NCBI GenBank assembly: GCA_016210005.1
Contig: JACQVA010000235.1
Span: 1 to 52,332, forward strand
Reading direction: 5' to 3'
Length of the DNA stretch: 52,332 bases
DNA from: Deltaproteobacteria bacterium
GTDB taxonomy: Bacteria; Desulfobacterota; Binatia; HRBIN30; JACQVA1
A model generated the notes under the pieces. That model had not been told where the DNA came from. It saw only the letters and a program-made list of their open reading frames with translations, and did no database searches. A program made the translations under genes and the position numbers. Positions 21,566 to 44,184 of this stretch are shown here, piece after piece (within the stretch, counting starts at the first letter, position 1; each line of letters starts with the position of its first letter).

Positions 21566-22777
21566 ATGTCCGGCAATGCACTCACGGGCATCAAGGTGAT
21601 CGAGCTGGGGCAGTTGGTGTCGGCGCCGTACTGCGCCAAGTTGTTCGCCGACTACGGTGCCGACGTCATCAAGGTCGAACCGCCGGCGGGCGACCGCGCC
21701 CGCTACTGGGGCCCCTTTCCCAACGACGTGCCCGACCCGGAGAAGAGCGGGCTGTTCTTCTTTCTCAACCGCAACAAGCGCGGCCTCACCCTCGACGTGC
21801 GACCGCAGCACGGGCGCGAGTTGCTGCTACGGCTAATCGCGCAGGCGGACGTGCTGATCGAGAACAACCCGCCGCGCTTCATGCGCGAACACCAGCTCGA
21901 CTACGCCGCGCTGGCGCAGATCAATCCCGACTTGGTGATGATTTCGATCACGCCCTTCGGGCAGACCGGGCCGTACAGCGAGTGGAACGGCTACGACCTC
22001 AACGCCTTTCACCTTACTGCGGCGGGCAGCCGCTACTGCGGGCAGCCGAACCAGGCGCCGCTCGAACATGGTACGTTCGCCGCCGACTTCTTCGGCGCCA
22101 CCGCCGGCGCGGCCTGGGGGCTGGCGGCAGTGTACGGGCGCCGGCGCGCCGGCGGCGGCCAGCTCATTGATGTCTCGTGTGCTGAGGCCATCGCCGCGCT
22201 TTTCGTCGGCGGCCAGAACATCGGCGGCTGTGCGCAAGACGGAGTGTTCGATCGCCGCACCGGGGTCGGGATGTCGTTGGGGGCGCCGGCCACCATCTTG
22301 CCGTGCAAGGACGGCCATGCCTGGATGCTGGCCTTGGAGCCCGGCCAGTGGAACGGCCTGGCGCGCGTGATGGGCAACCCCGAGTGGATGCAGCTGGAGA
22401 TGTTTCAGGAGATGTTCGTCCGCGCCCAAAACGCCGACGCCATGTATCCGCTGATCGAGCAGTGGACAAGTGAACACAGCAAGTGGGAAATAATGGACCA
22501 ATGTCAGGCCAACGGCTGCCCGGTGACGGCGGTGTTCACCGTAGCCGAGGCGGCCGAGCACCCGCACCTGAAAGCGCGTGACTACATCGTCGAAGTGGAG
22601 CATCCCCGGCTAGGGAAGGTTCGCGACCTGGGCGCTCCCTTCAAGCTCCCGGCCAGCCCCGGCGGGCCACGCCATCCCGCACCATTGCTCGGCCAACACA
22701 ACGACGAAGTCTACGGTGAGCTACTCGGCCTCGGCGGCGCTGAGCTGACGCAGTTGCGCAGCGAAGGCATCATCTGA
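21566..22777 (+). CDS. Class III CoA-transferase (CaiB/BaiF family)
   Basis: A 403-residue cytoplasmic CoA-transferase. The N-terminal signature GADVIKVEPPAGD and the downstream LNRNKRGLTLD and HGTFAADFFGATAGA segments are all present. The Asp in the last segment is the expected catalytic residue that forms the acyl-anhydride intermediate. A GGGGAGGG site 5 bases upstream fixes the ATG at 21566. The next CoA-transferase gene starts 32 bases downstream, so the two are co-transcribed and could act as separate enzymes or as a heterodimer. The acyl substrate cannot be deduced. Confidence 0.9.
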   Translation: MSGNALTGIKVIELGQLVSAPYCAKLFADYGADVIKVEPPAGDRARYWGPFPNDVPDPEKSGLFFFLNRNKRGLTLDVRPQHGRELLLRLIAQADVLIENNPPRFMREHQLDYAALAQINPDLVMISITPFGQTGPYSEWNGYDLNAFHLTAAGSRYCGQPNQAPLEHGTFAADFFGATAGAAWGLAAVYGRRRAGGGQLIDVSCAEAIAALFVGGQNIGGCAQDGVFDRRTGVGMSLGAPATILPCKDGHAWMLALEPGQWNGLARVMGNPEWMQLEMFQEMFVRAQNADAMYPLIEQWTSEHSKWEIMDQCQANGCPVTAVFTVAEAAEHPHLKARDYIVEVEHPRLGKVRDLGAPFKLPASPGGPRHPAPLLGQHNDEVYGELLGLGGAELTQLRSEGII

Positions 22778-22809
22778 CGAAGGCGGGCCGGTCAGTCGAG
22801 GTGACAGTC

Positions 22810-24030
22810 ATGAGCAAGGCACTTCCCCTCCAAGGCATCCGGGTGGCGAACTTCGGCTGGGTCTGGGCCGGCCCGGTGGTCGGGCAAACCCTCGGCTTCT
22901 TGGGCGCGGAGGTCTACAAGATCGAGTCGCGGGCGCGGATCGACCTCACCCGCATGCTGCCGCCGTTCGGCGGCGGCGTGCGTGACCCCGATCGCAGTCT
23001 CTCGAATCACGCCTGCTGGGCCGGCAACGGCAGCATCAGCCTCAATCTCAAGAAGGCCGAGGCGCAAGAACTGGCGCGCCAGTTCATCGCCACCTGCGAC
23101 GTGGTGGTAGAAAACTTCGGCCCCGGCGCGATGCAGGACATGAACCTCGGCTACGAGACCCTCACGGCGCTCAAGCCCGAACTGGTCATGTTGTCGATGC
23201 CGGCGGCCGGCCTCTACGGCCCGCTCAAGGACATCAGAACTTACGGCCTCAGCCTGACCAGTATCACCGGCTTAGATAGCCTCACAGGATACCCCGGCGG
23301 CCCGCCGGTGCCGGTGGAGAACGCTTTCTCCGATCCCTACAACGGCATCATGGGAGCCTTCGCCGTGCTCGCCGCCCTCATGTACCGCGACCGCTGCGGC
23401 ACCGGCCAGCACATCGACTACTCGCAGCAAGAGGCGGTCATGCCCATGGTTGGACCGGCGTTCATGGACTACGTGCTCAACGGCCGCGTGGCCGGCCCGC
23501 TGGGTAACCGCCATCCGCTGGCAGCGGCGGCCCCTCACGGCGTCTTCCCTTGTGCGGGCGCAGACCGCTGGGTCAGCGTCGCGGTCGTCACTGAAGCGGA
23601 ATGGCAGGGTCTGGTGAAAGCCATGGCCGAACCAGCATGGGCGCGCGCACCCGAGTTCGCCCAGCTCGCCGATCGCCTCCACCACCTCGACGACCTTCAT
23701 CAACACTTGGCGGCGTGGACTGCGGATTTCAACGACTACGAGTTGGCGCAACTGCTGCAACGGCACGGCGTCGCGGCGGCGCCGGTGCTGAACGTCGGCG
23801 ATTTACTCAAGGACCCGCATTACCGCGCGCGTGGCACGTTCATCGAGGTCCAGCATTCGTTGGGATTTCGCGAGACCATCTACGGCGCCTACGTCAAGAC
23901 CAGCCGCACCGAAGCCGACGTTCGCTCCGGGCCGCAAATCGGTCAAGACAACGATTTCGTCTTCAAGAAGCTGCTCGGTGTCTCGGAGGACCGTTACCGC
24001 CGGCTCATCGAAGAGCAGGTGATCTATTGA
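22810..24030 (+). CDS. Class III CoA-transferase (CaiB/BaiF family)
   Basis: A 406-residue protein. GAEVYKIESRARID replaces the more usual GADVIKVE, and FSDPYNGIMGAFAVLAAL carries the expected catalytic Asp. The ATG at 22810 has GAGGTGA five bases upstream (22798-22804). It follows the preceding CoA-transferase closely but is only distantly similar to it, so this is not a recent duplication. Both partners keep the Asp, in contrast to the pair at 34485-36914. Confidence 0.9.
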   Translation: MSKALPLQGIRVANFGWVWAGPVVGQTLGFLGAEVYKIESRARIDLTRMLPPFGGGVRDPDRSLSNHACWAGNGSISLNLKKAEAQELARQFIATCDVVVENFGPGAMQDMNLGYETLTALKPELVMLSMPAAGLYGPLKDIRTYGLSLTSITGLDSLTGYPGGPPVPVENAFSDPYNGIMGAFAVLAALMYRDRCGTGQHIDYSQQEAVMPMVGPAFMDYVLNGRVAGPLGNRHPLAAAAPHGVFPCAGADRWVSVAVVTEAEWQGLVKAMAEPAWARAPEFAQLADRLHHLDDLHQHLAAWTADFNDYELAQLLQRHGVAAAPVLNVGDLLKDPHYRARGTFIEVQHSLGFRETIYGAYVKTSRTEADVRSGPQIGQDNDFVFKKLLGVSEDRYRRLIEEQVIY

Positions 24031-26038: not shown

Positions 26039-26132
26039 CGTGGATCGAGGGGCGACGCCGACGACGATTCTTCCGCCAATCGGCCTTCGTCGTCGAGCAT
26101 TTGCAGTCGTGCGCAGGACGAGAAACGAGAAG

Positions 26133-26560: not shown

Positions 26561-26599
26561 TTGACCGAGGCGTCAAATGATTGCATATTGCAAATATGC
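26561..26599 (+). promoter_or_regulatory. Leaderless promoter and operator of the marR-efflux operon
   Basis: The -35 TTGACC (26561-26566), a 17-base spacer and the -10 CATATT (26584-26589) end exactly 6 bases before the ATG at 26596, so transcription should start at the A of the ATG. The perfect inverted repeat GCATATT-GCA-AATATGC (26583-26599) covers the -10 and the start codon, where a MarR dimer would block transcription. This predicts autorepression and drug- or ligand-induced release. Confidence 0.6.
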
Positions 26600-27066
26600 T
26601 GAAACGCAAAGGTACACCAGGCCAGAAGCTCGAGGGCGGTGCGCGTGAGCTGGTCACGCACCTTGACCGCGCGATGCGCCGGTTGGTTCTGGCCGGCAAC
26701 GAGCAGGGCATCCCGGAGAGCTTCAGTCGTTCGGAGATTGCCGTTCTCGACACCGTCGGCGCAGAAGGGCCGATGACCATGGGTGTGATCGCCGCGCGCG
26801 TTCGGATGCCACTCAGCACGGTGACCAGAGTCGTCGATCGACTCGTCGTGAGGGAATTGGTTCAGCGCGAGCGTCCGGAGGACAACCGCCGCGTCGTGCG
26901 GGTCGCGCTCGCGCCCGACGGCCATTCGTTCTACCAGGCTGCGCTGAGGAGTCGGATCGCCGGGGCACAGCGCATGTTGCAGCGCTTGACCGAGGGTGAA
27001 CAGCGCGAGCTGGTCCGACTCTTCCGGAAGATCGCAGATTCCATCGCGGAGGAGCCGCAGGGATGA
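26596..27066 (+). CDS. MarR-family transcriptional regulator
   Basis: A 156-residue winged-helix regulator: helical dimer part, then SFSRSEIAVLDTVGAEGPMT, the recognition region MGVIAARVRMPLSTVTRVVDRL and the wing LVQRERPEDNRRVVRVAL. It is the first gene of the efflux operon and overlaps the outer-membrane factor gene by four bases (ATGA). It has no Shine-Dalgarno sequence and a promoter placed for a leaderless transcript. It probably represses the pump until a toxic compound binds. Confidence 0.9.
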   Translation: MLKRKGTPGQKLEGGARELVTHLDRAMRRLVLAGNEQGIPESFSRSEIAVLDTVGAEGPMTMGVIAARVRMPLSTVTRVVDRLVVRELVQRERPEDNRRVVRVALAPDGHSFYQAALRSRIAGAQRMLQRLTEGEQRELVRLFRKIADSIAEEPQG

Positions 27067-28556
27067 CACGGGCCGCGCCGCACACCCGGTTGATCTGCCG
27101 CCTCACGCCGCTCTGGTGTATCGCTGTCCTGGCGGGCTGCGTTCTGGTAGGACCCAACTACGTCGCCCCGACGGCGTCCGAACTCCACGTTCCATCATCG
27201 TGGCAGGGCTCTGCACCATCGACCGCAGCCGGCCTTGAAATCGCAAACTGGTGGCAGCACCTCGGCGACGCGCTGTTGAGCCGACTTGTCGCGCAGGCGA
27301 TGCAGGCGAGCCCGGACGTGCAGTCCGCCCGCGCCAAGTTGCGCCAGGCGCGGGCACAGCGCCTTCTGGCGTTCGGTAACCTGTGGCCCACGGCCAGTGC
27401 CTCCGCATCGGCCCATCATACCGAGACCAGCGAACCGTCCGGCATTGGCGGTTCCCCATCCCAAAACGTTGCCGCCGGCAGCTCCCAAGACCTGTACAAT
27501 GCTGGGTTCGACGCGTCGTGGGAACCAGACATCGTCGGTGGTCAACGCCGTGCCCTCGAGGCCGCGAGCGCCGACCAGGCGGCGTCGATGGCGAGTCTGC
27601 ACAGTGCACAGGTGACGTTGGCGGCCGAGGTCGCACGCAACTACGTGGAGGCGCGATCGCTGCAGGCACGGATCGCCATCGTTCGAGCAAACCTTGGCAG
27701 CCAATCGGAGACCCTGGCGCTCACGCAGTGGCGTGTGCAGGCCGGCCTGACCAGTTCGCTGGACGCAGAGCAGCAACGCACCAACGTCGAGCAGACGCGG
27801 GCGACGATTCCTCCCCTCGAAACCTCCTTGGCTGAGGCGGAGCATCGGATTGGTACTCTCCTCGGCCTCGCACCCGGTGCGTTGCACGAGGACCTCGCCG
27901 TCCCGGCGCCCATTCCACAAGTTCCGGAGCCGCTCACCATCGGGATCCCGGCAGATATTTTGCGCCAACGACCGGACGTGGCCGCCGCCGAGCGCACGCT
28001 AGCCGGGGCCACCGCGCGCATCGGTGAGGCCGCGGCGGCGCGCTATCCGAGCTTCACGCTCTCCGGATCGGTCGGGGTCGAAGCAATGACGATCGGTGCG
28101 CTCACCAATGGAAGCTCCCTCGCCGCCAGCGTGGTGGGTAGCCTCGCACAGACGATCTTCGACGCGGGGCGCATCAGCGCGAAAATTGAAATCCAGGACG
28201 CGATACAACAACAAGCGCTGGCGACGTATCAGGCGACGGTTCTCACGGCGCTCGAAGACGTCGAGAACGCACTCGTCTCGCTCGCCAACAGCCAGGCACG
28301 TGCAACGGCGCTGGCCGCGGCTGTCGAGTCGGCGCGCAACGCCGCGCTCCTCGCCCGCTATCGCTACAGCACGGGCATCATCGACTTCCAGGCCGTCCTC
28401 GATACCGAGCGCACCGTTCTAACAATCGAGGAGAGTCTCAATGTGACGCAGGCCGAGAACACCGTCGCCGCCGTCCAGCTATACAAGGCGTTGGGTGGCG
28501 GCTGGTCTCCGGCCGAAGCGCTTGCCGGACCCAATATGCAGGGCACATCATCATGA
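27063..28556 (+). CDS. Outer-membrane efflux factor, NodT/OprM family lipoprotein
   Basis: A 497-residue TolC-type channel protein. Signal peptide with lipobox LAGC (Cys26) followed by the NodT-family start VGPNYVAP. Two outer-membrane efflux repeats are visible, with DASWEPDIVGGQRRALEA in the first and RYPSFTLSGSVGVEA ... IFDAGRISAKIE in the second. It forms the outer-membrane exit duct for the MacAB-like pump. It overlaps marR and the adaptor gene by four bases each. Confidence 0.92.
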   Translation: MTRAAPHTRLICRLTPLWCIAVLAGCVLVGPNYVAPTASELHVPSSWQGSAPSTAAGLEIANWWQHLGDALLSRLVAQAMQASPDVQSARAKLRQARAQRLLAFGNLWPTASASASAHHTETSEPSGIGGSPSQNVAAGSSQDLYNAGFDASWEPDIVGGQRRALEAASADQAASMASLHSAQVTLAAEVARNYVEARSLQARIAIVRANLGSQSETLALTQWRVQAGLTSSLDAEQQRTNVEQTRATIPPLETSLAEAEHRIGTLLGLAPGALHEDLAVPAPIPQVPEPLTIGIPADILRQRPDVAAAERTLAGATARIGEAAAARYPSFTLSGSVGVEAMTIGALTNGSSLAASVVGSLAQTIFDAGRISAKIEIQDAIQQQALATYQATVLTALEDVENALVSLANSQARATALAAAVESARNAALLARYRYSTGIIDFQAVLDTERTVLTIEESLNVTQAENTVAAVQLYKALGGGWSPAEALAGPNMQGTSS

Positions 28557-29851
28557 GTCATCCATCGTTCTCAGCGAGCAGCGACATCACTGCGATTCTC
28601 GGAACTGGCGGCGCGAGTACCCGCTTCCGGTGGTCCCTGCGCTGGATCGGCGTTCCAGTCGTGATCCTTGTGGGAGTCGTCGCCTACTTGTTCCTGCGTT
28701 CGGGCGACCATGGCCAATCGCCGCTTTACGAGACCGAAACCGTGGCGCGCGGCAATCTCGTGGTGACCGTGTCCGCCACCGGCACCCTGGAGCCCACCAA
28801 TCAGGTCGATGTCGGCAGCGAGCTCTCGGGGCTCATCGAAGTGGTCTTGGCGGAGGAAAACGACCGCGTGACCCAGGGGCAGGTGCTGGCGCGCCTCGAC
28901 ATCTCGAAACTCACGGACGAGATCACCAAGTCGGAGGCGGCACTGGCTTCCGCCGAGGCCAAGGTGGTGCAAACCACTGCCACCACCAAGGAGGCACGGG
29001 CCAACCTTGCGCGCCTGCGCGCCGTGTCGCGGTTGTCGGGCGGGAAGGTGCCGTCGAAGGCGGAAATGGAGACCGCCGAGGCAACCCTGGCACGGGCAGC
29101 TGCAGATGTGGCCAGCGCCCGCGCTGCCGTTTCCGAAGCCCGCGCCGTGCTGAGCTCGAACCAGACCAATCTCGCGAAAGCCTCGATCCGCTCGCCGATC
29201 AATGGGGTAGTCCTGAGTCGGAAGATCGAGCCGGGCCAGACCGTCGCTGCAGCCATGACGACCCCGGTGCTGTTCACGCTGGCGGAGGACCTATCGCAGA
29301 TGAAGCTTCAGGTGAAGGTTGACGAAGCCGACGTCGGCCAGGTGGAAGACGGGCAATCCGCAACCTTCACCGTGGATGCGTACCCGACGCGGAAGTTCCC
29401 GGCCCGGATCGTCCGTGTCGGATTCGGTTCGCAGACAACTGACAACGTAGTCACGTACAAGACGATCCTCACCGTCAACAACGATGACGTCAGTCTGCGA
29501 CCGGGCATGACGGCCACCGCAGAAATCACCACGGCACAGCGAGAGAACGTGCTGCTCGTGCCCAATGCCGCACTGCGGTTCACGCCGACGCTAAACAACG
29601 AGAGCAGCCACAAATCCGGCGGTGGCATCGTCGGCAGTCTGTTGCCGCACCCACCGGAACCACAAGCGAGAAGACCCGCTGCTTCTCCGGCGAAGAGCGG
29701 CGGGCAGCGGGTATGGATCGTACGCAAAGGGGAGGCCGCTGCCGTCGATGTCACCGTGGGCGTCACCGACGGGCGCTTCACCGAGGTCATAGGCGGAGGC
29801 CTTGAGCCCGGCATGCAGGTGATCACCGATGTGCTCGTCTCATCCAAATGA
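28553..29851 (+). CDS. MacA-like periplasmic adaptor (RND/ABC membrane fusion protein)
   Basis: A 432-residue protein with one N-terminal membrane anchor (about 31-50), a lipoyl-like half (GTLEPTNQVDVGSELSG), a coiled-coil hairpin (about 115-205), the second lipoyl half (IRSPINGVVLSRKIEPGQTV), and beta-barrel and membrane-proximal domains. A Pro/Ser-rich insert of about 45 residues (LNNESSHKSGGGIVGSLLPH ...) before the last domain is unusual. It joins the inner-membrane MacB-like complex to the NodT-type channel. Confidence 0.9.
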   Translation: MSHPSFSASSDITAILGTGGASTRFRWSLRWIGVPVVILVGVVAYLFLRSGDHGQSPLYETETVARGNLVVTVSATGTLEPTNQVDVGSELSGLIEVVLAEENDRVTQGQVLARLDISKLTDEITKSEAALASAEAKVVQTTATTKEARANLARLRAVSRLSGGKVPSKAEMETAEATLARAAADVASARAAVSEARAVLSSNQTNLAKASIRSPINGVVLSRKIEPGQTVAAAMTTPVLFTLAEDLSQMKLQVKVDEADVGQVEDGQSATFTVDAYPTRKFPARIVRVGFGSQTTDNVVTYKTILTVNNDDVSLRPGMTATAEITTAQRENVLLVPNAALRFTPTLNNESSHKSGGGIVGSLLPHPPEPQARRPAASPAKSGGQRVWIVRKGEAAAVDVTVGVTDGRFTEVIGGGLEPGMQVITDVLVSSK

Positions 29852-30573
29852 CTGATGTCCGACCCACCACAAGAGCCGCCCCGTTGATCGAATTGAGCGG
29901 AATTGTGAAGACCTACGGCTACGGCGAGTCGACGTTCCAAGCACTACGCGGCGTGGACGTGCGGGTCGACGAGGGCGAGTTCGTTGCCATCATGGGCCCC
30001 AGCGGTTCGGGCAAGTCGACGGTGATGAATATCCTGGGCTGCTTGGATGTACCGACCTCGGGTGCCTACCGGTTCCGCGGCGTACACGTCGAAATGCTCT
30101 CGCGTGATCAGCGCGCCTTGCTGCGCCGCCACTATCTCGGCTTCGTGTTCCAGGGCTTCAATCTGCTCGCGCGCACGTCAGCCATCGAGAACGTCGAGCT
30201 GCCGCTGCTCTATCGTGGCGAAGCGGCGGCCACACGTCATGCGGCAGCGCGCGTGGCACTGGCATCCGTGGGCCTGCATGGATGGGAGGGTCACTCCGCT
30301 GTGGAGCTCTCGGGCGGCCAGCAGCAGCGGGTTGCGATCGCGCGCGCCATCGTCACCAAGCCGACCCTTCTGCTTGCCGACGAGCCCACCGGAAATCTCG
30401 ACACCCAACGCAGCCGTGAGATCATGGAGTTGCTGACGGTCCTCAATCGTGACCAGGGCATCAGCGTCGTGATGGTGACCCACGACCCTGACATGGCGGC
30501 GTTCGCCAGCCGCATCGTCCACTTCGTCGATGGCTGCATCCAACGCGTCGAGCACAAGCGGGAGGTTCGGTGA
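29848..30573 (+). CDS. MacB-type ABC transporter ATPase subunit
   Basis: A 241-residue ATPase of the LolD/MacB family. Walker A GPSGSGKST (50-58), signature LSGGQQQR (about 154-161), Walker B LLLADEP (about 174-180) with GNLD following, and the switch His in VMVTHD are all intact. The permease is encoded separately by the next gene, so this is a split MacB. Overlaps of four bases on both sides indicate coupled translation. Confidence 0.93.
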   Translation: MTDVRPTTRAAPLIELSGIVKTYGYGESTFQALRGVDVRVDEGEFVAIMGPSGSGKSTVMNILGCLDVPTSGAYRFRGVHVEMLSRDQRALLRRHYLGFVFQGFNLLARTSAIENVELPLLYRGEAAATRHAAARVALASVGLHGWEGHSAVELSGGQQQRVAIARAIVTKPTLLLADEPTGNLDTQRSREIMELLTVLNRDQGISVVMVTHDPDMAAFASRIVHFVDGCIQRVEHKREVR

Positions 30574-31781
30574 TGCTCTGGAGTATCGTCGTGCTGGCGG
30601 TGCGGGCGATCCGCCGCAACCTGATGCGCGCCTTCCTCACCGTCCTGGGTATCGTCATCGGCGTCTCCGCCGTCGTCAGCATGGTGACGCTCGGTAACGG
30701 GGCCACCCGCGCCGTATCGGATCAGATCTCCAGCCTGGGAAGCAACCTCCTGATGGTCAGCCCGGGGCAACGGCTAGGCCCGGGGCGAGACACGGCTGGC
30801 GCGCCGGCCTTCAAGGTGGCCGACGCGACAGCCATCGAGGCCCAAATCAGTGGTCTCAAGGCCGTCGCACCTAGCGTGAGCACCAGCGTGACCGCGGTGC
30901 ACATGGCGAAGAATTGGTCCACCAGTGTGATCGGCACCACCGCCGCATACGTCCAGATCGGCAACTGGAGGCTCGCCGACGGCCGTATCTTCAACGAGGC
31001 CGAGGAGAAGGCCGGCAAGGCGGTGTGCGTGATCGGCGACACCGTGCGGCGGGAGCTCTATGGCAGACAGAACCCCGTCGGCGGCGAGTTGCGCATCAAG
31101 CAGTTTTCCTGCGCGATCGTCGGGCTGCTGCAGGCGAAGGGGCAGTCGTCAATGGGGATGGACCAGGACAACACGGTGATCATGCCGGTGCGTACGGTGC
31201 ACCGCAGGCTGACCGGCAACCAGGACGTCGGCACGCTGTTGGTCTCGCTGAAGGACGGGGAGTCGAGCAACAAGGTCAAGACCCAGATCGAGCGGCTGAT
31301 GCGCGAGCGCCGCAGAATCGCCGACAACGAAGATGACAATTTCAACGTGCTCGATACGAGGCAGATCGCGGAGGCGCTCTCCGGCACGACCCGTATCATG
31401 ACGATGCTGTTGGGAGCAGTGGCCGCCGTGAGTTTGCTGGTCGGCGGAATCGGCATCATGAACATCATGCTGGTATCTGTAACCGAGCGCACGCGGGAGA
31501 TCGGCATCCGCCTCGCCATTGGGGCGCTCGAGCGGGAAGTGTTGTTGCAGTTTCTCGTCGAGGCCGTCGTGCTCTCCGCGTTCGGCGGTCTCGTCGGCAT
31601 TGTTCTGGCCACGCTTGCATCCGTGGGACTCGCCCGCGTGATCCAAGTTCCCTATCTCTTCAACCCGCAAATCAACCTGGTCGCATTCCTGTTTTCAGCC
31701 GCGATCGGCGTGATCTTTGGTTTCTTCCCGGCACGCCGCGCGGCACAACTCGATCCGATCGAGGCGTTGCGGCACGAGTAG
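30570..31781 (+). CDS. MacB-type ABC transporter permease (FtsX domain)
   Basis: A 403-residue permease: one N-terminal membrane segment (RNLMRAFLTVLGIVIGVSAVV), a periplasmic MacB core domain (about 45-265), and an FtsX domain with three membrane segments (LLGAVAAVSLLVGGIGIMNI onwards), ending PARRAAQLDPIEALRHE. The GTG at 30570 overlaps the ATPase stop; an ATG directly follows it. MacB-type pumps use ATP to drive the adaptor mechanically and export macrolides, lipoproteins, peptides or signals; the substrate here is unknown. Last gene of the operon. Confidence 0.92.
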   Translation: MMLWSIVVLAVRAIRRNLMRAFLTVLGIVIGVSAVVSMVTLGNGATRAVSDQISSLGSNLLMVSPGQRLGPGRDTAGAPAFKVADATAIEAQISGLKAVAPSVSTSVTAVHMAKNWSTSVIGTTAAYVQIGNWRLADGRIFNEAEEKAGKAVCVIGDTVRRELYGRQNPVGGELRIKQFSCAIVGLLQAKGQSSMGMDQDNTVIMPVRTVHRRLTGNQDVGTLLVSLKDGESSNKVKTQIERLMRERRRIADNEDDNFNVLDTRQIAEALSGTTRIMTMLLGAVAAVSLLVGGIGIMNIMLVSVTERTREIGIRLAIGALEREVLLQFLVEAVVLSAFGGLVGIVLATLASVGLARVIQVPYLFNPQINLVAFLFSAAIGVIFGFFPARRAAQLDPIEALRHE

Positions 31782-32266: not shown

Positions 32267-32303
32267 TTGCACCTGCCTGATCGTTATCGTATAAAAATCG
32301 TAT
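32267..32303 (+). promoter_or_regulatory. Leaderless promoter and operator of the toxin-antitoxin pair
   Basis: The -35 TTGCAC (32267-32272), a 17-base spacer and the -10 TATAAA (32290-32295) end 6 bases before the ATG at 32302, predicting a leaderless transcript. Two direct copies of ATCGTAT (32286-32292 and 32297-32303) overlap the -10 and the ATG and are likely antitoxin binding sites for autoregulation. Confidence 0.65.
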
Positions 32304-32628
32304 GTCGAAGCAGGCGATATCGGTAACGCTCGCGGCCGACAATCTGTTGTGGGTCCGAGGGCAGGCGCATGCGCGCGGCGCGGGCAGCGTCAGCTCGGTG
32401 ATCGATCGGCTGATCTCCGCGGCGCGGGCCGGCGGGCACGTCCACGACGACAGCATTCGCTCGGTGAAGGGCACCGTGCACATTGCCGAGACCGACCCCG
32501 CCCTGCACGGTGCCGACGCGGCGATTGGTGCGCTGTTCCCCGGTGCGCTGGTCTCTGAGGCATCGGCCCGATACCGGCGCAGCGCCAAGTCGTCCCCACG
32601 GTCGAAACCGTCCGGACGCAAGCGGTGA
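32302..32628 (+). CDS. VapB-like antitoxin
   Basis: A 108-residue protein. The N-terminus (QAISVTLAADNLLWVRGQAH then SSVIDRLISAA) has the strand-helix-helix pattern of ribbon-helix-helix antitoxins. The basic C-terminal tail (SAKSSPRSKPSGRKR) would wrap the toxin or contact DNA. It overlaps the PIN-domain gene by four bases (GTGA), the usual arrangement of type II toxin-antitoxin pairs. It has no Shine-Dalgarno sequence. Confidence 0.75.
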   Translation: MSKQAISVTLAADNLLWVRGQAHARGAGSVSSVIDRLISAARAGGHVHDDSIRSVKGTVHIAETDPALHGADAAIGALFPGALVSEASARYRRSAKSSPRSKPSGRKR

Positions 32629-33029
32629 TGCTGAAAGCCGCGGTCGCCGATACCCACGCCCTCATCTTTCACGCGAGCGGCAGCCGCCACCTCGGTCGGC
32701 GGGCGGCCGCCGTCTTCGCGGCGGCGGAGCAACGCGCGGCCGTGGTGTACATCCCGGTCGCCGTGATGTGGGAATGCGCGCTGCTCGCCCGCGTCGGCCG
32801 GGTTGATTTTCAACGCTCAGTGCGGACGTTTTTCGATGACCTCTTCAGCAACCCGGCGTATCAGCCGATCGACTTGACCCCCGAGCAGGTGTGCCTCGCG
32901 GATGAGCGGCGCCCGAACAATGACCCGTTCGACGCACTCATCTGCGCGGCAGCGCATCAGCTCGACCTGCCCCTGCTGACTCGAGACGAAGCGATCCACG
33001 AGTCGAGGCTGGTTCGGGTTGTCTGGTAG
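32625..33029 (+). CDS. PIN-domain ribonuclease toxin, VapC-like
   Basis: A 134-residue PIN nuclease. The acidic metal-binding residues are in place: D9 in VADTHAL, E50 in MWECALL, D100/D103 in NDPFDALICAAA and D121 in TRDEAI. It would cleave RNA when freed from the antitoxin encoded just upstream. The start is GTG at 32625 (ATG at 32628 as alternative), overlapping the antitoxin stop. An 11-base repeat, ATCGTATGTCG, present at the antitoxin start, recurs 27 bases after its stop (33056-33066). Confidence 0.88.
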   Translation: MMLKAAVADTHALIFHASGSRHLGRRAAAVFAAAEQRAAVVYIPVAVMWECALLARVGRVDFQRSVRTFFDDLFSNPAYQPIDLTPEQVCLADERRPNNDPFDALICAAAHQLDLPLLTRDEAIHESRLVRVVW

Positions 33030-33067: not shown

Positions 33068-34303
33068 TCAACCTTTCTTGCGTCGCAGCTCCGCAGGTGT
33101 AGCAACGGCCGCGGCACTGGCGAGATCCGCGATCTCGTCGGGCCGATAGCCCAATTCCCCGAGGATCTCCTCGGTGTGCTGCCCGTGCAGCGGCGGGCTG
33201 AGTCGTACGCTACCGGGCGTGCCGTGGAAGTGAATCGGTACGCCGGTGACGCGGATGGGTCCGAGCTTGCGGTGCTCCGTGGTCACGATCATCCGATTGT
33301 GGAGGATCTGCGGGTCCTCGACCGCTTCGGGAATTTCGTTGACGGGCGCCGTCAACACGTCCGCCGCGATCAGCCGCTCGACTAACTCGGCGCAGGTAAA
33401 GTCCTGGCAGCGCGCCTCGATCAGGCGGTCGAGTTCGTCCTGATTGCGCAGCCGGCTGTCGATGTCGTGGAAGCGCGGCTCATCGGCCCACGCGACGTCC
33501 AGCGCGCCGCAGAGGTTGCGAAAGAACTTCTCGGAGGGGCAGGTGATCACCGCCCGCTTGCCGTCCTTGCAGGTGTAAATCCCCGAGGGCGCGAAGTATT
33601 GGCTGCGGTTGCCGGTTCGTGGCGTGACTTCGCCGGTGAGCAGATACGGCGCCAGGCCGGTGCACTGCGCGTGCATGAGCGCGTCGAGCAGCGAGACGTC
33701 GATGCGTTGGCCCGCGCCCGTTTGCGCGCGTGCGTGCAAGGCCGTCAGCGCCGCGGTACTCACCAGCAGTGAGGTCATCACATCCACCACCGGGATGCCC
33801 ATCCGCACCGGCGCGCCGTCCGGCTGGCCGTTCAGGACCAGCACCCCGGCGTAGCCCTGGGCCAAGAAATCAATCCCGGGGCGGCCGGCGTAGGGTCCAT
33901 CGGCTCCGAATGCCGTCACGCCGATCCAGATGATGTCGGGGCGATGCCGGCACACCTGCTCGTAGCTGCTCCCGAGCTTGGACAGCGCGGGCTCGCGGAC
34001 GTTGGTAATCAGCACGTCGGTGGTCTTCAGCAGTCGGGCGAAGACTTCCTGCGCCCCTGGCCGGCGCAGATCGAGAACCAGGTCGCGCTTGTTGCGGTTG
34101 AGGCTGAGGAACGGCGAGTGCTCGCCCTGGCGCTCGGGCCCGAGGTTGCGGCTGTCATCGCCGATGAACGACTCGACCTTGATGACATCGGCCCCGAGAT
34201 CCCCGAGCAGCGTCGCCCCGTACGGCCCCGCCAGCATGGTAGCCATGTCGAGGACGCGAATGCCGGCGAGGGGGCCGGGGGAGGAGTGCGGCTGCGGGCT
34301 CAT
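33068..34303 (-). CDS. Class III CoA-transferase (CaiB/BaiF family)
   Basis: A 411-residue CoA-transferase with GADVIKVESFIGDDSRN, LSLNRNKRDLVLDL and MGIPVVDVMTSLLVSTAAL, the last carrying the expected catalytic Asp. The ATG at 34303 is chosen; the open frame continues upstream only because it reads through the intergenic repeat at 34325-34417. It ends 38 bases from the toxin gene on the opposite strand. It is likely the distal gene of the acetone carboxylase/CoA-transferase run, though separated from it by the repeat. Confidence 0.9.
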   Translation of the reverse strand: MSPQPHSSPGPLAGIRVLDMATMLAGPYGATLLGDLGADVIKVESFIGDDSRNLGPERQGEHSPFLSLNRNKRDLVLDLRRPGAQEVFARLLKTTDVLITNVREPALSKLGSSYEQVCRHRPDIIWIGVTAFGADGPYAGRPGIDFLAQGYAGVLVLNGQPDGAPVRMGIPVVDVMTSLLVSTAALTALHARAQTGAGQRIDVSLLDALMHAQCTGLAPYLLTGEVTPRTGNRSQYFAPSGIYTCKDGKRAVITCPSEKFFRNLCGALDVAWADEPRFHDIDSRLRNQDELDRLIEARCQDFTCAELVERLIAADVLTAPVNEIPEAVEDPQILHNRMIVTTEHRKLGPIRVTGVPIHFHGTPGSVRLSPPLHGQHTEEILGELGYRPDEIADLASAAAVATPAELRRKKG

Positions 34304-34324
34304 GCCAGGCAGCCGGAATAGTGT

Positions 34325-34417
34325 CCCCTCTCCCCCTTGGGGGAGAGGGTCAGGGTGAGGGGGTCGGTCGCGCTTGCCGAAGCCCTCACCCCAACCCTCT
34401 CCCAGAGGGAGAGGGAG
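34325..34417. repeat. REP-like intergenic inverted repeat
   Basis: CCCTCTCCC-CTTGGGGGAGAGGG-type palindrome followed by GTCAGGGTGAGGGGG and, about 30 bases on, the complementary CCCTCACCCCAACCCTCTCC. This paired palindrome is a widespread dispersed repeat of GC-rich proteobacterial genomes. It could form a long hairpin between two CoA-transferase genes and may limit read-through or stabilise upstream mRNA. Confidence 0.85.
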
Positions 34418-34484
34418 ATCCGGCGGCAGCACGCGAATCCCGTCTTGCAGCGAATCCGCGACTTGCAATCCGACATCCGCAATT

Positions 34485-35696
34485 TCACGGAATCACTCCC
34501 TGTTCCTTGAACTCCCCGACTTGCTCCCACGAGTAGCCGAGCGTCTCGGTGAGAATCAGCTCCGTGTGCTGGCCCAATTCCGGGCCCAGGCCCCAGACGG
34601 AGCCGGGGGTCTTGCTGAGCCCGATCGGGAGGCCGCGGATCTTCACCTGGCGCTGCACTTCTTCGCAGTACGTCTCCAGGAAGTAATCGTTGGCCCACGC
34701 CTGTGGGTCCTCGGCGAGATCGGCGAGGTTGTTGATGGGGCTGGCGACGATGCCGAGCGATCGCCAGCGCTCCATCCATTCGCCGGCGCTCCGACGCTTG
34801 ATGGCTTTGTCGAGGCGCGTGACAAGGGCCTTGGCGTTGCGGCGGCGCTTCTGCACGCTGTCGAAGCGCGCCTCGCTGGCGAGGCCGGCGTCATCTAGAC
34901 TCTGGCAGAGGCGGGACCAGTTCTCGTCGGTGTTGGCCAAGCAGAGGAAGACCCACTTGTCTTTCGCCGGGTAGCGGTTCCGCAGCGGATTTTCGGTCGC
35001 CTTGCGGGGCTGCTGCTTGGAGTACTGTTCGCTGCCCGTCGCGAGATACGCTTGCAGCGTCGGCGCAGTGAGGAACAACTGCGCGCCGTAGAGCGAGGCG
35101 TCGAGCATCTGGCCTTTGCCGGTGCGGTTGCGATGATACAGCGCCAGCATGATGCCGAGCGCGGACATCAGGCCGCCGTAGGCATCGCCCGAGCCCATGC
35201 CGAGATAGATCGGCGGCTGCGCCGGCTCGCCGAGACGCGCCATCAAACCGGTGAGCGCCTGCACGGTCATGTCGAACGACGGCTTGTTCACCGCGCCGAA
35301 GCGGCCGTAGCCGGTGTTGGTGGCGTACACCAGACGCGGGTTGATCGCGCTGAGCTTGTCGTAGCCGAGCTGCCAGCTCTCCAGCAGCTCGACGCCCATG
35401 TTGGAGAGAAACACGTCGGACTTCTCGACTAGGCGGTACATGATCTCGCGGCCCGCCGGCTTCTTGAGATCGAGCGCGATGCTCTTCTTGTTCCGATTGA
35501 TCACTAGGAAGTACTGATTCCAGTCGCCGACGGGCAGCGCCTTGATGCTGCGCACGCCGCGGCCCTGATCGCCGCCCTGGGGGCGCTAGCCCTAGCTCTC
35601 CTCGTCGCCGACTTCGTCGTGATGCTGCGCCGCCACCGGCCCCTGAAACCAGACCGTCAGGTCGATGACTCGGATGCCTTCAAGTGCGGCTGCCAC
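34485..35696 (-). pseudogene. Class III CoA-transferase with disrupted N-terminus (two in-frame TAG codons)
   Basis: The GTG at 35696, with AGAGG upstream, starts a normal CaiB N-terminus (AAALEGIRVIDLTVWFQGPV). From codon 26 to 37 (35621-35586) the expected LADFGADVIKIE-type segment is replaced by HDEVGDEES-stop-G-stop, after which RPQGGDQGRGVRSIKALPVG resumes in the same frame. The replacement keeps the length, and no frameshift restores homology. Downstream the gene is intact and keeps the catalytic Asp in GSGDAYGGLMSALG. A shorter product could start at 35555 but would lack the CoA-binding N-terminus. Neighbour of the Asp-less CoA-transferase. Confidence 0.8.
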
Positions 35697-35720
35697 GCGC
35701 GTACCTCTCCGTCCGTTGGC

Positions 35721-36914
35721 TTAGACAATGACTCCGCCCGCGGCCAGCTCGCCGATGCGGTCTTCCGAGTACCCCAGTAGCTCGTGCAGGATCTCGGCCG
35801 AGTGCTGGCCGAGGCAGGGCGCGGTGCGGCTGAGCCGGCCTGGGGTCTCGCTCATGAAGATCGGGAAGCCGAGGGTCTTGATGCGGCCGACACCGGGGCG
35901 GTCGAGTTCGAGGATGTAACGGTTGCGCAACGCCTGCGGATCGTTGGCCGGATAGTCGAACTCCTCGATCACGTCGGCCGATAGCTGGCGTTGGGTCAGC
36001 TCGCGTTTCCAGTGCTCGGCGGGTTGCTGGCGAAACTTGTCTTCGAGCACCCGGATGAGTTCCAGGCGGTTTTCGCCGCAGCGTTTCTCGTGGCTATTGA
36101 AGCGCGGATCGTTTTGATCCAAGCCCATCATGGCAGAGAAGCCGGGCCACCACCGATCCGTGTCGGGCATGGTGACGCACACCCAGCGGCCATCCTGCGA
36201 CGGGTACAGGATGCCGCTCATTGGGTTGCCGGCATCCATCCGCGCGACAGGGTGCAGGAAGCGCTCGCCGCCCATCGCCAGGAACGCTTGCACGTCGAGG
36301 CTGGCGCCGTAGATGTTGCCGGCGAACAGCGAGACGTCCACCTCCTGCCCTTCGCCGGTGGCTTGGCGATGGTGCAGGGCCAGCGAAACGCCGAAGGCGA
36401 TCATCACGGCAGTGTACATCTGGCCGGCACCCGCGTAGACGGGCGGCTGGCCGGGCTGCGGCATGATGGGCATCATCCCCGTGCGCGCGGCGGCCAACTC
36501 ATCGAGCGCCGGTAGATCGCGGTCCGGGCCTTTGGGTCCGAAGCCCGAGGCATGGGCGAAGATGATGTCAGGCTTTAGTGCGCAGAGACTGGCGTAGTCG
36601 AGTTGTCGCTGCTCGATACGGACCCGCGGCCAGTCGGTGACGAACACGTCGGCCTTGCGAATCAGCTCGCGCAGAATCGCACGTCCGGCATCGTCGTCGA
36701 GATTGAGAGCAAGGCCGAGCTTGTTGCGCTGCGCGAGTTCGGCCTGGTAGTCCCACGGCACCGACGGGTCGTTGGGCTGCCGTCCGTGGGCGTCCGGCAG
36801 GTTTTCGATTTTGATGACCGTCGCGCCGAAGTCGGCGAGCAGCGCCGTCCCGATCGACGACCAGAACTCCGTCGTCAGATCGAGGACGACCACGTTGTCG
36901 AGCGCCTTGCTCAT
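35721..36914 (-). CDS. Class III CoA-transferase homologue lacking the catalytic Asp
   Basis: A 397-residue CaiB-family protein with GATVIKIENLPDAHGR and RNKLGLALNLD. Where relatives have the catalytic Asp, it reads AGAGQMYTAVM, with Gln165 in its place, so it should not form the acyl-anhydride intermediate. This suggests a structural subunit of a heterodimeric CoA-transferase or an altered activity. The gene with the intact Asp motif (34485-35696) begins 24 bases downstream but is broken. It follows acxC, separated by a dispersed repeat. Confidence 0.85.
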   Translation of the reverse strand: MSKALDNVVVLDLTTEFWSSIGTALLADFGATVIKIENLPDAHGRQPNDPSVPWDYQAELAQRNKLGLALNLDDDAGRAILRELIRKADVFVTDWPRVRIEQRQLDYASLCALKPDIIFAHASGFGPKGPDRDLPALDELAAARTGMMPIMPQPGQPPVYAGAGQMYTAVMIAFGVSLALHHRQATGEGQEVDVSLFAGNIYGASLDVQAFLAMGGERFLHPVARMDAGNPMSGILYPSQDGRWVCVTMPDTDRWWPGFSAMMGLDQNDPRFNSHEKRCGENRLELIRVLEDKFRQQPAEHWKRELTQRQLSADVIEEFDYPANDPQALRNRYILELDRPGVGRIKTLGFPIFMSETPGRLSRTAPCLGQHSAEILHELLGYSEDRIGELAAGGVIV

Positions 36915-42638: not shown

Positions 42639-42667
42639 TTGCACGCCCAGTGCAAGAACCATATGAT
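42639..42667 (+). promoter_or_regulatory. Leaderless promoter and operator of the tetR gene
   Basis: The -35 TTGCAC (42639-42644), a 17-base spacer and the -10 TATGAT (42662-42667) end 6 bases before the ATG at 42674. The perfect inverted repeat TTGCAC-GCCCA-GTGCAA (42639-42655) uses the -35 as its left arm, so binding of a TetR dimer would block RNA polymerase. This predicts autorepression of tetR and the dehalogenase gene. Confidence 0.65.
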
Positions 42668-42673
42668 TCACCC

Positions 42674-43291
42674 ATGGGCGCAGCCGCCGGCAGTATTGAC
42701 CATGCCCGCATTGACGGGCGCAAGGCGCGCCGGGCGGGCACGCGTGCCGCGGTCGTGGATGCCCTACTGGACTTACTCGAGGACGGCGAGCTGAGGCCGA
42801 CCGGGCCGCGCATTGCCGCACGCGCCGGGGTGTCGCTGCGCTCGATCTTCCAGCACTTCACCGACATCGAGGCGTTGTTCGCTGCCGCCGCGGATCGGCA
42901 GACCGAGCGTATCCGTGCCCTCGCCAGCCCCGTCACGGGGCAGGGGCCACTGAGCCAGCGCCTCGCGGCCTTCGCCGCCCAACGCGCGCGGATCTTCGAG
43001 GCGATAACTCCGGTGCGGCGCGCGGCCCTGCTGATGGAACCCTTCTCGCCGGAAATAGCCCGGCGCTTGCGTCAGGCGCGCGCTGCCGCCAGACGCGAAA
43101 TCGAGCGGGTGTTCGCACCCGAATTGAGCCCGCTGCCAGCCAGCGAGCAAAGCGAAGTACTTGCCGCCCTGGATGCCGCCAGCGGCTTCTCGACTTGGTA
43201 CACGCTGCGCGCGCATCAGGATCTCGCCCCCGAGCCGGCGCTCCGGGTGATGACGCGCCTGCTCGCCAACCTCTTGTCGGAGGAACGATGA
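42674..43291 (+). CDS. TetR/AcrR-family transcriptional regulator
   Basis: A 205-residue regulator. The N-terminal helix-turn-helix reads RAAVVDALLDLLEDGELRPT then PRIAARAGVSLRSIFQHFTD, the standard TetR DNA-binding domain. The C-terminal ligand-binding part is all helical. The ATG at 42674 lacks a Shine-Dalgarno sequence and fits a leaderless transcript. Its TGA overlaps the start of the haloalkane dehalogenase gene (ATGATG), so the two genes are coupled and the dehalogenase substrate, or a product, is a likely inducer. Confidence 0.9.
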   Translation: MGAAAGSIDHARIDGRKARRAGTRAAVVDALLDLLEDGELRPTGPRIAARAGVSLRSIFQHFTDIEALFAAAADRQTERIRALASPVTGQGPLSQRLAAFAAQRARIFEAITPVRRAALLMEPFSPEIARRLRQARAAARREIERVFAPELSPLPASEQSEVLAALDAASGFSTWYTLRAHQDLAPEPALRVMTRLLANLLSEER

Positions 43292-44184
43292 TGGAGTACC
43301 TGCGCACGCCCGACGAACGCTTCGGCAATTTACCCGGCTATCCCTTCACACCGCATTACCTCGAGGCCGACGGCTTGCGCATTCACTACCTCGATGAGGG
43401 CCCAGGCGGCGCCGCCCCGGTACTGTTGCTGCACGGCGAACCCTCGTGGTCATACCTCTATCGCCGGATGATCCCCGTCATCGTCGCCGCCGGCCACCGC
43501 GTGGTGGCGCCGGACCTGGTTGGCTTCGGCCGTTCGGACAAACCCGTCCGGCGCGGGGACTACACCTATCAGCGCCACGTCGACTGGATGCGCGGCGTCG
43601 TCGAGCAACTTGATCTGCGCCGCATCACGCTCGTGTGTCAGGACTGGGGCGGCCTGATCGGCCTGCGGCTGGCCGCCGAGCATGAGCAGCGCTTCGCAGG
43701 CATCGTGGCGGCCAATACCTTTCTGCCCACGGGCGATGTCTCCCCCGGACCGGCTTTCTTGGCGTGGCGGCAGTATTCGCAGGAAACGCCCGAGTTCCAT
43801 GTCGGCGGCATAGTGCGCGGGGGCTGCGTCAGTGACCTCGCCCCGGAAATCATCGCGGCCTACGATGCCCCGTTCCCCGATGATCGCTACAAAGCCGGCG
43901 CCCGCCAGTTCCCGACGCTGGTGCCGGCCACGCCCGATGACCCTGCAACTGAACCCAATCGTCGCGCTTGGGAGGTGCTGAGCCGCTGGCATAAGCCGTT
44001 CCTGACCGCGTTCAGCGACTCCGATCCGATCACTGCCGGAGCTGACGTGGCCCTGCGACAAGCGATCCCCGGCGCTGCCGGCCAACCGCATACTACCATC
44101 GCCGGCGCCGGCCACTTCCTGCAAGAGGATAAAGGCGAGGACTTCGCGCGCGTGATCGTCGCCTACCTGGCGGCCGCCTCCTAG
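43288..44184 (+). CDS. Haloalkane dehalogenase, subfamily I type
   Basis: A 298-residue alpha/beta hydrolase. The nucleophile Asp119 lies in VCQDWGG, Trp120 supplies one halide-binding residue, and His276 lies in GAGHFLQED. The catalytic acid is in SDSDP (Asp246 most likely). The oxyanion segment is LHGEPSWSYLYR, with Glu where subfamily II has the halide-binding Asn. Trp160 in the cap could be the second halide ligand. This pattern (Asp acid after strand 7, Glu, two Trp) is that of subfamily I. It would hydrolyse haloalkanes to alcohols. GGAGG precedes the start; ATG 43288 and ATG 43291 are both possible. Confidence 0.87.
   Translation: MMEYLRTPDERFGNLPGYPFTPHYLEADGLRIHYLDEGPGGAAPVLLLHGEPSWSYLYRRMIPVIVAAGHRVVAPDLVGFGRSDKPVRRGDYTYQRHVDWMRGVVEQLDLRRITLVCQDWGGLIGLRLAAEHEQRFAGIVAANTFLPTGDVSPGPAFLAWRQYSQETPEFHVGGIVRGGCVSDLAPEIIAAYDAPFPDDRYKAGARQFPTLVPATPDDPATEPNRRAWEVLSRWHKPFLTAFSDSDPITAGADVALRQAIPGAAGQPHTTIAGAGHFLQEDKGEDFARVIVAYLAAAS

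Follow-up and report, generated by a model that had tools for sequence, protein, structure and literature searches.

Leaderless operons encoding TetR-family regulators or toxin-antitoxin pairs have already been published. In Rhodobacter sphaeroides, the acuR-acuI-dddL operon is headed by the gene for a TetR-family repressor, and its transcript was mapped exactly to the AUG (PMC3017554). As described there, acuR has an inverted-repeat operator at its promoter, lacks a Shine-Dalgarno (SD) sequence and is less strongly translated than the genes that follow it; the authors associate leaderless mRNAs with regulators that are needed in small amounts, such as lambda CI and TetR (PMC3017554). For Mycobacterium tuberculosis, a primary start was available for 37 toxin-antitoxin pairs, of which 32 were reported to be leaderless, as was about a quarter of all genes with a primary start; the study gives TANNNT as the -10 element and found no -35 consensus (Cortes 2013, PMC3898074). 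A study of 953 bacterial genomes describes “TA-led” leaderless genes with TANNNT about 12 bp upstream of their starts, and reports that leaderless genes are likelier in the COG class transcription (Zheng 2011, PMC3160421). Work on Deinococcus-Thermus, which includes a survey across bacterial phyla, describes leaderless messages driven by a -10 motif located a few bp ahead of ORFs, with a -35 element raising output (PMC12340547). Finally, crtR of Corynebacterium glutamicum, which encodes a MarR-family regulator, has been reported to be leaderless (PMC5401885).

The three operons described here resemble these systems to different degrees. Like acuR, the tetR gene heads its operon, has a repeat in its promoter and lacks an SD sequence; it belongs to another lineage and precedes other genes, and a leaderless transcript is predicted for tetR but was proven for acuR. 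Our antitoxin-toxin pair parallels those of M. tuberculosis as a message that is, in this case, predicted to be leaderless. By contrast with the description of M. tuberculosis, SD-like signals outnumber -10 signals at starts in the Binatia genome, and a TTG -35 belongs to the pattern. As in the TA-led genes described by Zheng and colleagues, each promoter has a -10-like hexamer roughly 12 to 7 nt before the start, although the literal TANNNT is present in tetR only. ORFs adjacent to a -10 motif are described as a common mode in Deinococcus-Thermus (~30% of ORFs), whereas in Binatia they appear to be a minor one. The crtR gene is described as divergent from its target operon, with a promoter motif that is not easily found, whereas marR heads its own efflux operon and a promoter-like site was found. 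What is new is the occurrence of this arrangement in the Binatia lineage; our literature search turned up no earlier description of leaderless Binatia genes. If the prediction is right, this occurrence adds the uncultivated candidate phylum Binatota to some cultivated groups known to express repressors and antitoxins from leaderless mRNAs. It also suggests that a leaderless mode can coexist with a common SD signal, and provides a rule, open to testing, by which the start positions of small regulators could be predicted.

Promoter-like elements abutting three start codons

The window, that is, the whole 52,332-nt stretch of DNA analysed, contains three genes at which TTGNNN, a 17-nt spacer, a -10-like hexamer and 6 further nt lead directly into an ATG (Table 1). 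The hexamers, coordinates, spacers and 6-nt gaps listed for these genes in an earlier note were all correct on re-reading of the sequence. Exactly three of the 1108 ATGs examined on both strands of the window combine the 6-nt geometry with a score at least equal to the weakest of marR, the antitoxin gene and tetR; the mean count at 36 alternative spacings is 0.19, a comparison that flatters these promoters since the score threshold was set post hoc on the same three genes. The earlier note also held that the three genes lack an SD sequence. Indeed, no SD-like stretch precedes any of the three ATGs, and none is associated with an in-frame ATG, GTG or TTG within 90 nt downstream of them. The position of the -10-like hexamers and the absence of SD sequences fit leaderless, σ70-type (TA-led) genes in all three cases, although CATATT (marR) and TATAAA (antitoxin gene) do not match the literal motif TANNNT.

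A scan for the σ70 consensus detected the promoters of marR and tetR, the latter in an 18-nt-spacer reading, and did not detect that of the antitoxin gene. The marR promoter is the sole promoter-like site between positions 26039 and 26620, where 0.1 would be expected, and the scan likewise found no second promoter-like site upstream of tetR.

Each promoter is associated with a repeat, as the earlier note had claimed, but the repeats do not cover the promoters in the same way: that of marR does not reach the -35 hexamer, and the main repeat of tetR covers the -35 hexamer and the spacer. We consider the marR repeat a probable MarR operator, the main tetR repeat a probable TetR operator, and the ATCGTAT direct repeat a probable operator at the antitoxin locus. 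The repeats suggest autoregulation, with each repressor predicted to bind its own operator. Since the start codon lies inside the repeat at marR and at the antitoxin gene, promoter, operator and start appear to be packed into one site.

In all three operons, the start codon of the downstream gene can overlap the stop codon of the regulator gene; the marR stop codon overlaps the ATG of the gene that follows. We refer to the 108-aa gene as an antitoxin gene because a PIN gene lies directly behind it with overlapping stop and start codons, and the label therefore rests on position; neither Pfam (at 0.001) nor NCBIfam (at 0.01) gave a match that would assign the protein to a known antitoxin family. 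A PIN gene right behind a small gene is the arrangement of VapBC-type type II toxin-antitoxin systems.

The best overall explanation, which we regard as highly probable, is that a σ70-type promoter is placed against the ATG in each case, yielding autoregulated operons whose transcripts are leaderless or nearly so.

Table 1. Features of the three operons, with positions in the window
Feature	Position	Strand	Basis or remark
marR promoter	TTGACC 26561-26566, N17, CATATT 26584-26589, GCAAAT, ATG 26596	+	sequence
Inverted repeat GCATATT-GCA-AATATGC	26583-26589/26593-26599		7/7; -10 in left arm, start codon in right arm
marR, MarR-family regulator, ATG start, heads efflux operon	26596..27066	+	Pfam MarR 1.2e-12
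Outer-membrane efflux protein, HlyD-type adaptor, ABC ATPase, MacB/FtsX permease	27063..31781	+	downstream of marR
Antitoxin-gene promoter	TTGCAC 32267-32272, N17, TATAAA 32290-32295, AATCGT, ATG 32302	+	sequence
Direct repeat ATCGTAT, 11 nt apart	32286-32292/32297-32303		over -10 and start codon
Small gene, 108 aa, “antitoxin”	32302..32628	+	PIN gene next, stop and start overlapping
PIN-domain gene, probable toxin	32625..33029	+	Pfam PIN 2.9e-9
tetR promoter	TTGCAC 42639-42644, N17, TATGAT 42662-42667, TCACCC, ATG 42674	+	sequence
Inverted repeat TGGTGTTTGCAC-N5-GTGCAAGAACCA	42633-42644/42650-42661		83%, over -35 and spacer
Weaker palindrome overlapping the main tetR repeat	42656-42669		90%, over -10
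tetR, TetR-family regulator, ATG start	42674..43291	+	Pfam TetR_N 1.6e-6
Alpha/beta hydrolase, ATG overlapping tetR stop, GGAGG upstream	43291..44184	+	sequence and Pfam

No Rfam family matched anywhere in the window at gathering scores. Positions 5164-8118 encode a 984-aa, regulator-like protein that combines a DNA-binding Trans_reg_C domain with an AAA_16 ATPase domain and is absent from the leaderless-type matches. The window also holds five genes of CoA-transferase family III (21566-24030 and 33068-36914), which bracket the efflux and toxin-antitoxin operons with two genes to one side and three to the other.

Regulator families and other genes in the genome and class

The host genome (5.9 Mb, 268 contigs) belongs to the class Binatia, and its nearest relative among the genomes compared, G001, is from the same family. 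The earlier note had proposed a genome-wide scan for TTGNNN combined with TANNNT. The literal pattern TTG-N20-TANNNT-N6-ATG is enriched, with 20 matches in the host genome versus 5 for the reversed pattern, and 778 versus 190 over 58 Binatia genomes (exceeding the reversed control in 53 genomes, below it in 2 and equal to it in 3), but it catches only tetR of the three genes in the window. The 20 genes include those for cytidylate kinase, exonuclease VII, radical-SAM and HAD proteins. Pfam searches with 19 of them identified three antitoxins (L075, L084 and, below the cut-off, L083), the twentieth gene being the tetR of the window; L067, L072, L079 and L080, for which Pfam gave no match, may be antitoxin-like. 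L075 and L084 are near-alike PF09720 antitoxin genes that have the same leaderless-type promoter on separate contigs of G000 (C223 and C268), and C223 carries a second PF09720 match.

How common are such starts? Start signals were counted in a sample of 915,618 bases that included the window (639 genes called, 613 used). SD-like stretches are most frequent at 5 nt, with 86 candidate starts versus 6-20 at spacings of 15-30 nt, and TANNNT lies at 6 nt in 17 genes versus ~7 (range 0-13) at other spacings. The SD-like peak is above the TANNNT signal, and we therefore rejected the reading that this is a leaderless lineage.

Two of the three genes in the window fail the literal TANNNT test, which was dropped in favour of a weighted -35/-10 score with other spacings in the same regions as controls. 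The score and the range of 6-8 nt were chosen after inspecting marR, the antitoxin gene and tetR. Most start codons are not independently known, so all candidate starts were tried, equally in the controls; because the gene caller overlooked the antitoxin gene and truncated some starts, the enrichment figures rest on all candidate starts. With this score, 64 of 348 operon-leading genes in the host genome, a set containing marR, tetR and two or more further TetR genes, have a promoter-like site at 6-8 nt (controls 21-47, mean 33), as do 10 of 139 internal genes (control mean 8). The corresponding counts in G001 are 23 of 136 leading genes (control mean 11) and 5 of 111 internal genes (control mean 5). 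On these counts, leaderless starts seem to be a genuine but minor mode in the Binatia genome.

Two regulator families exceed this level. Sites at 6-8 nt precede 13/27 TetR genes of the host genome, all of which were included (controls 1-6, mean 4.0; SD-like stretches 5/27), and 13/29 TetR genes of relatives, these being the best-scoring 29 loci of 618 matches in 23 genomes (controls 1-4; SD-like 6/29). For PF09720 antitoxins from 13 genomes the count is 20/30 (30 loci of 44 matches; controls 0-5, mean 2.4; SD-like 12/30). Phd antitoxins show a weak excess, 10/29 (controls 4-7; SD-like 13/29), in a set of 29 of 30 loci (L326 left out) drawn from many more matches. Only 1/30 short-chain dehydrogenase (SDR) genes (30 of 56 matches) has such a site, and 24/30 have SD-like stretches; since SDR genes may often sit inside operons, the leading genes are a fairer control. 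Compared with the leading genes of the same genome, some of which are themselves TetR genes, the 13/27 TetR genes are significantly enriched (Fisher p=7.7e-4), and SD-like stretches are less frequent (5/27 versus 137/348, p=0.04).

These counts bear on two claims of the earlier note. That regulators make systematic use of leaderless mRNA is partly supported by the enrichment of TetR genes and PF09720 antitoxins, but “systematic” goes too far: 14/27 TetR genes and 19/29 Phd genes lack such a promoter, and the literal pattern matches non-regulators too. That the geometry is identical, as a rule for the lineage, is too strong a statement: the strict form (window score, 17-nt spacer, exactly 6 nt) occurs in 1/27 TetR genes, which is the tetR of the window itself, in 4/30 PF09720, 1/29 Phd and 0/30 SDR genes, and in 2/331 other leading genes (0-3 at other spacings). 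Nor does the literal TANNNT show a peak in TetR genes, with one gene each at 6, 7 and 8 nt.

An alternative explanation is that leaderless starts are a general minor mode unrelated to regulators, which stand out simply as operon heads. The excess among leading genes in both genomes is consistent with this, as are the housekeeping genes among the literal-pattern matches. Nonetheless, TetR genes exceed even the leading genes of their own genome (p=8e-4, rounded), and the proportion of PF09720 antitoxins is higher still; this argument does not extend to Phd. We regard a general mode of this kind as unlikely, and it would in any case be compatible with the best explanation for the three genes.

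Homologues of the three regulators and the predicted transcript start

Relatives of the antitoxin (51-58% identity) were found in three other genomes. In all three, and hence in 4/4 loci with our own, the -10 hexamer lies exactly 6 nt before the ATG, and all four have TTG at -35 or -36. The DNA between the hexamers varies in the relatives, and the hexamers keep their place. ATCGTAT repeats are present on both sides in L061, L063 and L064, and are degenerate in L062.

For tetR, the set of homologues from the class comprised 17 loci (L031-L047), our own included. A promoter-like site lies 5-10 nt before the start in 13 of the 16 relatives (14 of 17 loci with our own), compared with 8, 2, 0 and 1 for control sextets, and 12 of these 14 loci have no SD-like stretch. 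In the narrow range of 6-8 nt the count is 7 of 17, and one control reaches 6. Of 80 further homologues fetched from named genomes, 6 on repeated contigs were left out and 7 had no candidate start; among the 67 counted, 38 have a site at 5-10 nt (versus 10-13) and 31 at 6-8 nt (versus 2-11). TTTGCAC-N5-GTGCAA of the tetR repeat is kept in G001 (L032). The locus thus has the AcuR-type arrangement, with a TetR-family first gene and an inverted repeat in its own promoter that is kept in relatives. As judged by eye, many homologues have a TTGCAC-type inverted repeat between or over the promoter elements, with the -10 at 6 to 10 nt from the start, and a similar arrangement occurs in records from Chloroflexi and Actinomycetota (e.g. 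L092 and L091).

The marR gene has distant relatives only, the best-scoring match being 37% identical, and the lack of a close orthologue means that there is no orthologue footprint for its promoter. A search of genome contigs with MarR found no relative; the MarR family has 7 matches in the host genome, 4 of them above the cut-off, and the marR of the window is the one studied here. Among 11 MarR homologues (L001-L011, our own included), 8 score at 6-8 nt versus 0-5 in controls, five of the 8 with GTG starts. L002, L003, L004 and L006, all from one family, have TTGNNN-N17-TANNNT-N6/7 followed by a GTG start; the geometry therefore serves GTG as well.

Leaderless or nearly leaderless transcripts are the best reading of all three loci, with conservation supporting the antitoxin gene and tetR. 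A +1 at the A of the ATG is a prediction. Given the gap of 5-10 nt among relatives of tetR, leaders of 0 to ~3 nt are equally possible.

It could be argued that the promoters are real but that transcription starts some nt earlier, or translation at another codon, such that the mRNAs have a short, ordinary leader. The range of gaps in tetR relatives fits such a model, since sequence alone does not pin down the 5ʹ end, and some relatives look leadered: in L005 the start lies 15 nt after the -10, and L043, L045 and L046 have SD-like stretches. We nonetheless consider short ordinary leaders improbable for the three genes, whose nearby in-frame starts lack SD-like stretches, and in 4/4 loci the alignment of the antitoxin proteins begins at the first Met. 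It is very unlikely that the hexamers arose by chance in AT-rich operator DNA and that the real promoters lie further upstream: CATATT and TATAAA are loose, the threshold was post hoc and the antitoxin promoter escaped the consensus scan, but sites at 6-8 nt outnumber those at other spacings of the same regions, the antitoxin hexamers are fixed while the DNA between them changes, and no other promoter-like site was found upstream of marR or tetR.

A possible mechanism, and palindromes near start codons

How might operons with leaderless promoters function? We propose that a σ70-type promoter reads each gene with its -10 directly against the start codon, such that the mRNA would start without a leader or with about 0 to 3 nt of leader. 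The ribosome would then bind the 5ʹ-terminal AUG without an SD sequence to start the first cistron. Translation of the next gene, whose start codon can overlap the regulator stop, is probably coupled, or may use a ribosome site of its own. Binding of the regulator to the repeat that covers the promoter would shut off its own operon. We speculate, with considerable reservation, that leaderless initiation in Binatia is a selected channel for self-limiting genes, i.e. repressors and antitoxins. In some of these genes, one half of the operator would hold the -10 and the other half the start codon (CATATT-GCA-AATATG at marR; CATACTNAACGTTCAGTATG in L276, L386, L389 and L397), and one site might set promoter, repression and translation start, keeping repressor output low.

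Palindromes with a score of at least 7 were found near the start in 4/13 and 5/13 TetR genes with abutting promoters (shuffles 4%), compared with 2/62 other leading genes with abutting promoters (shuffles 6%). They also occur, above the level of shuffles, in TetR genes without abutting promoters (3/14 and 3/16), and are therefore not a mark of leaderless genes alone. The counts for Phd antitoxins are 4/10 and 3/19, and no palindrome of this score was found near the start of PF09720 antitoxins. At marR, L278, L386 and L397, a single palindrome spans both elements, with the -10 and the start codon in opposite arms; L389 and L276 have, as judged by eye, CATACTGAACGTTCAGTATG. In L276, L386, L389 and L397, which are TetR genes of different genomes, the palindrome-like CATACTNAACGTTCAGTATG encompasses the start codon together with a -10-like element.
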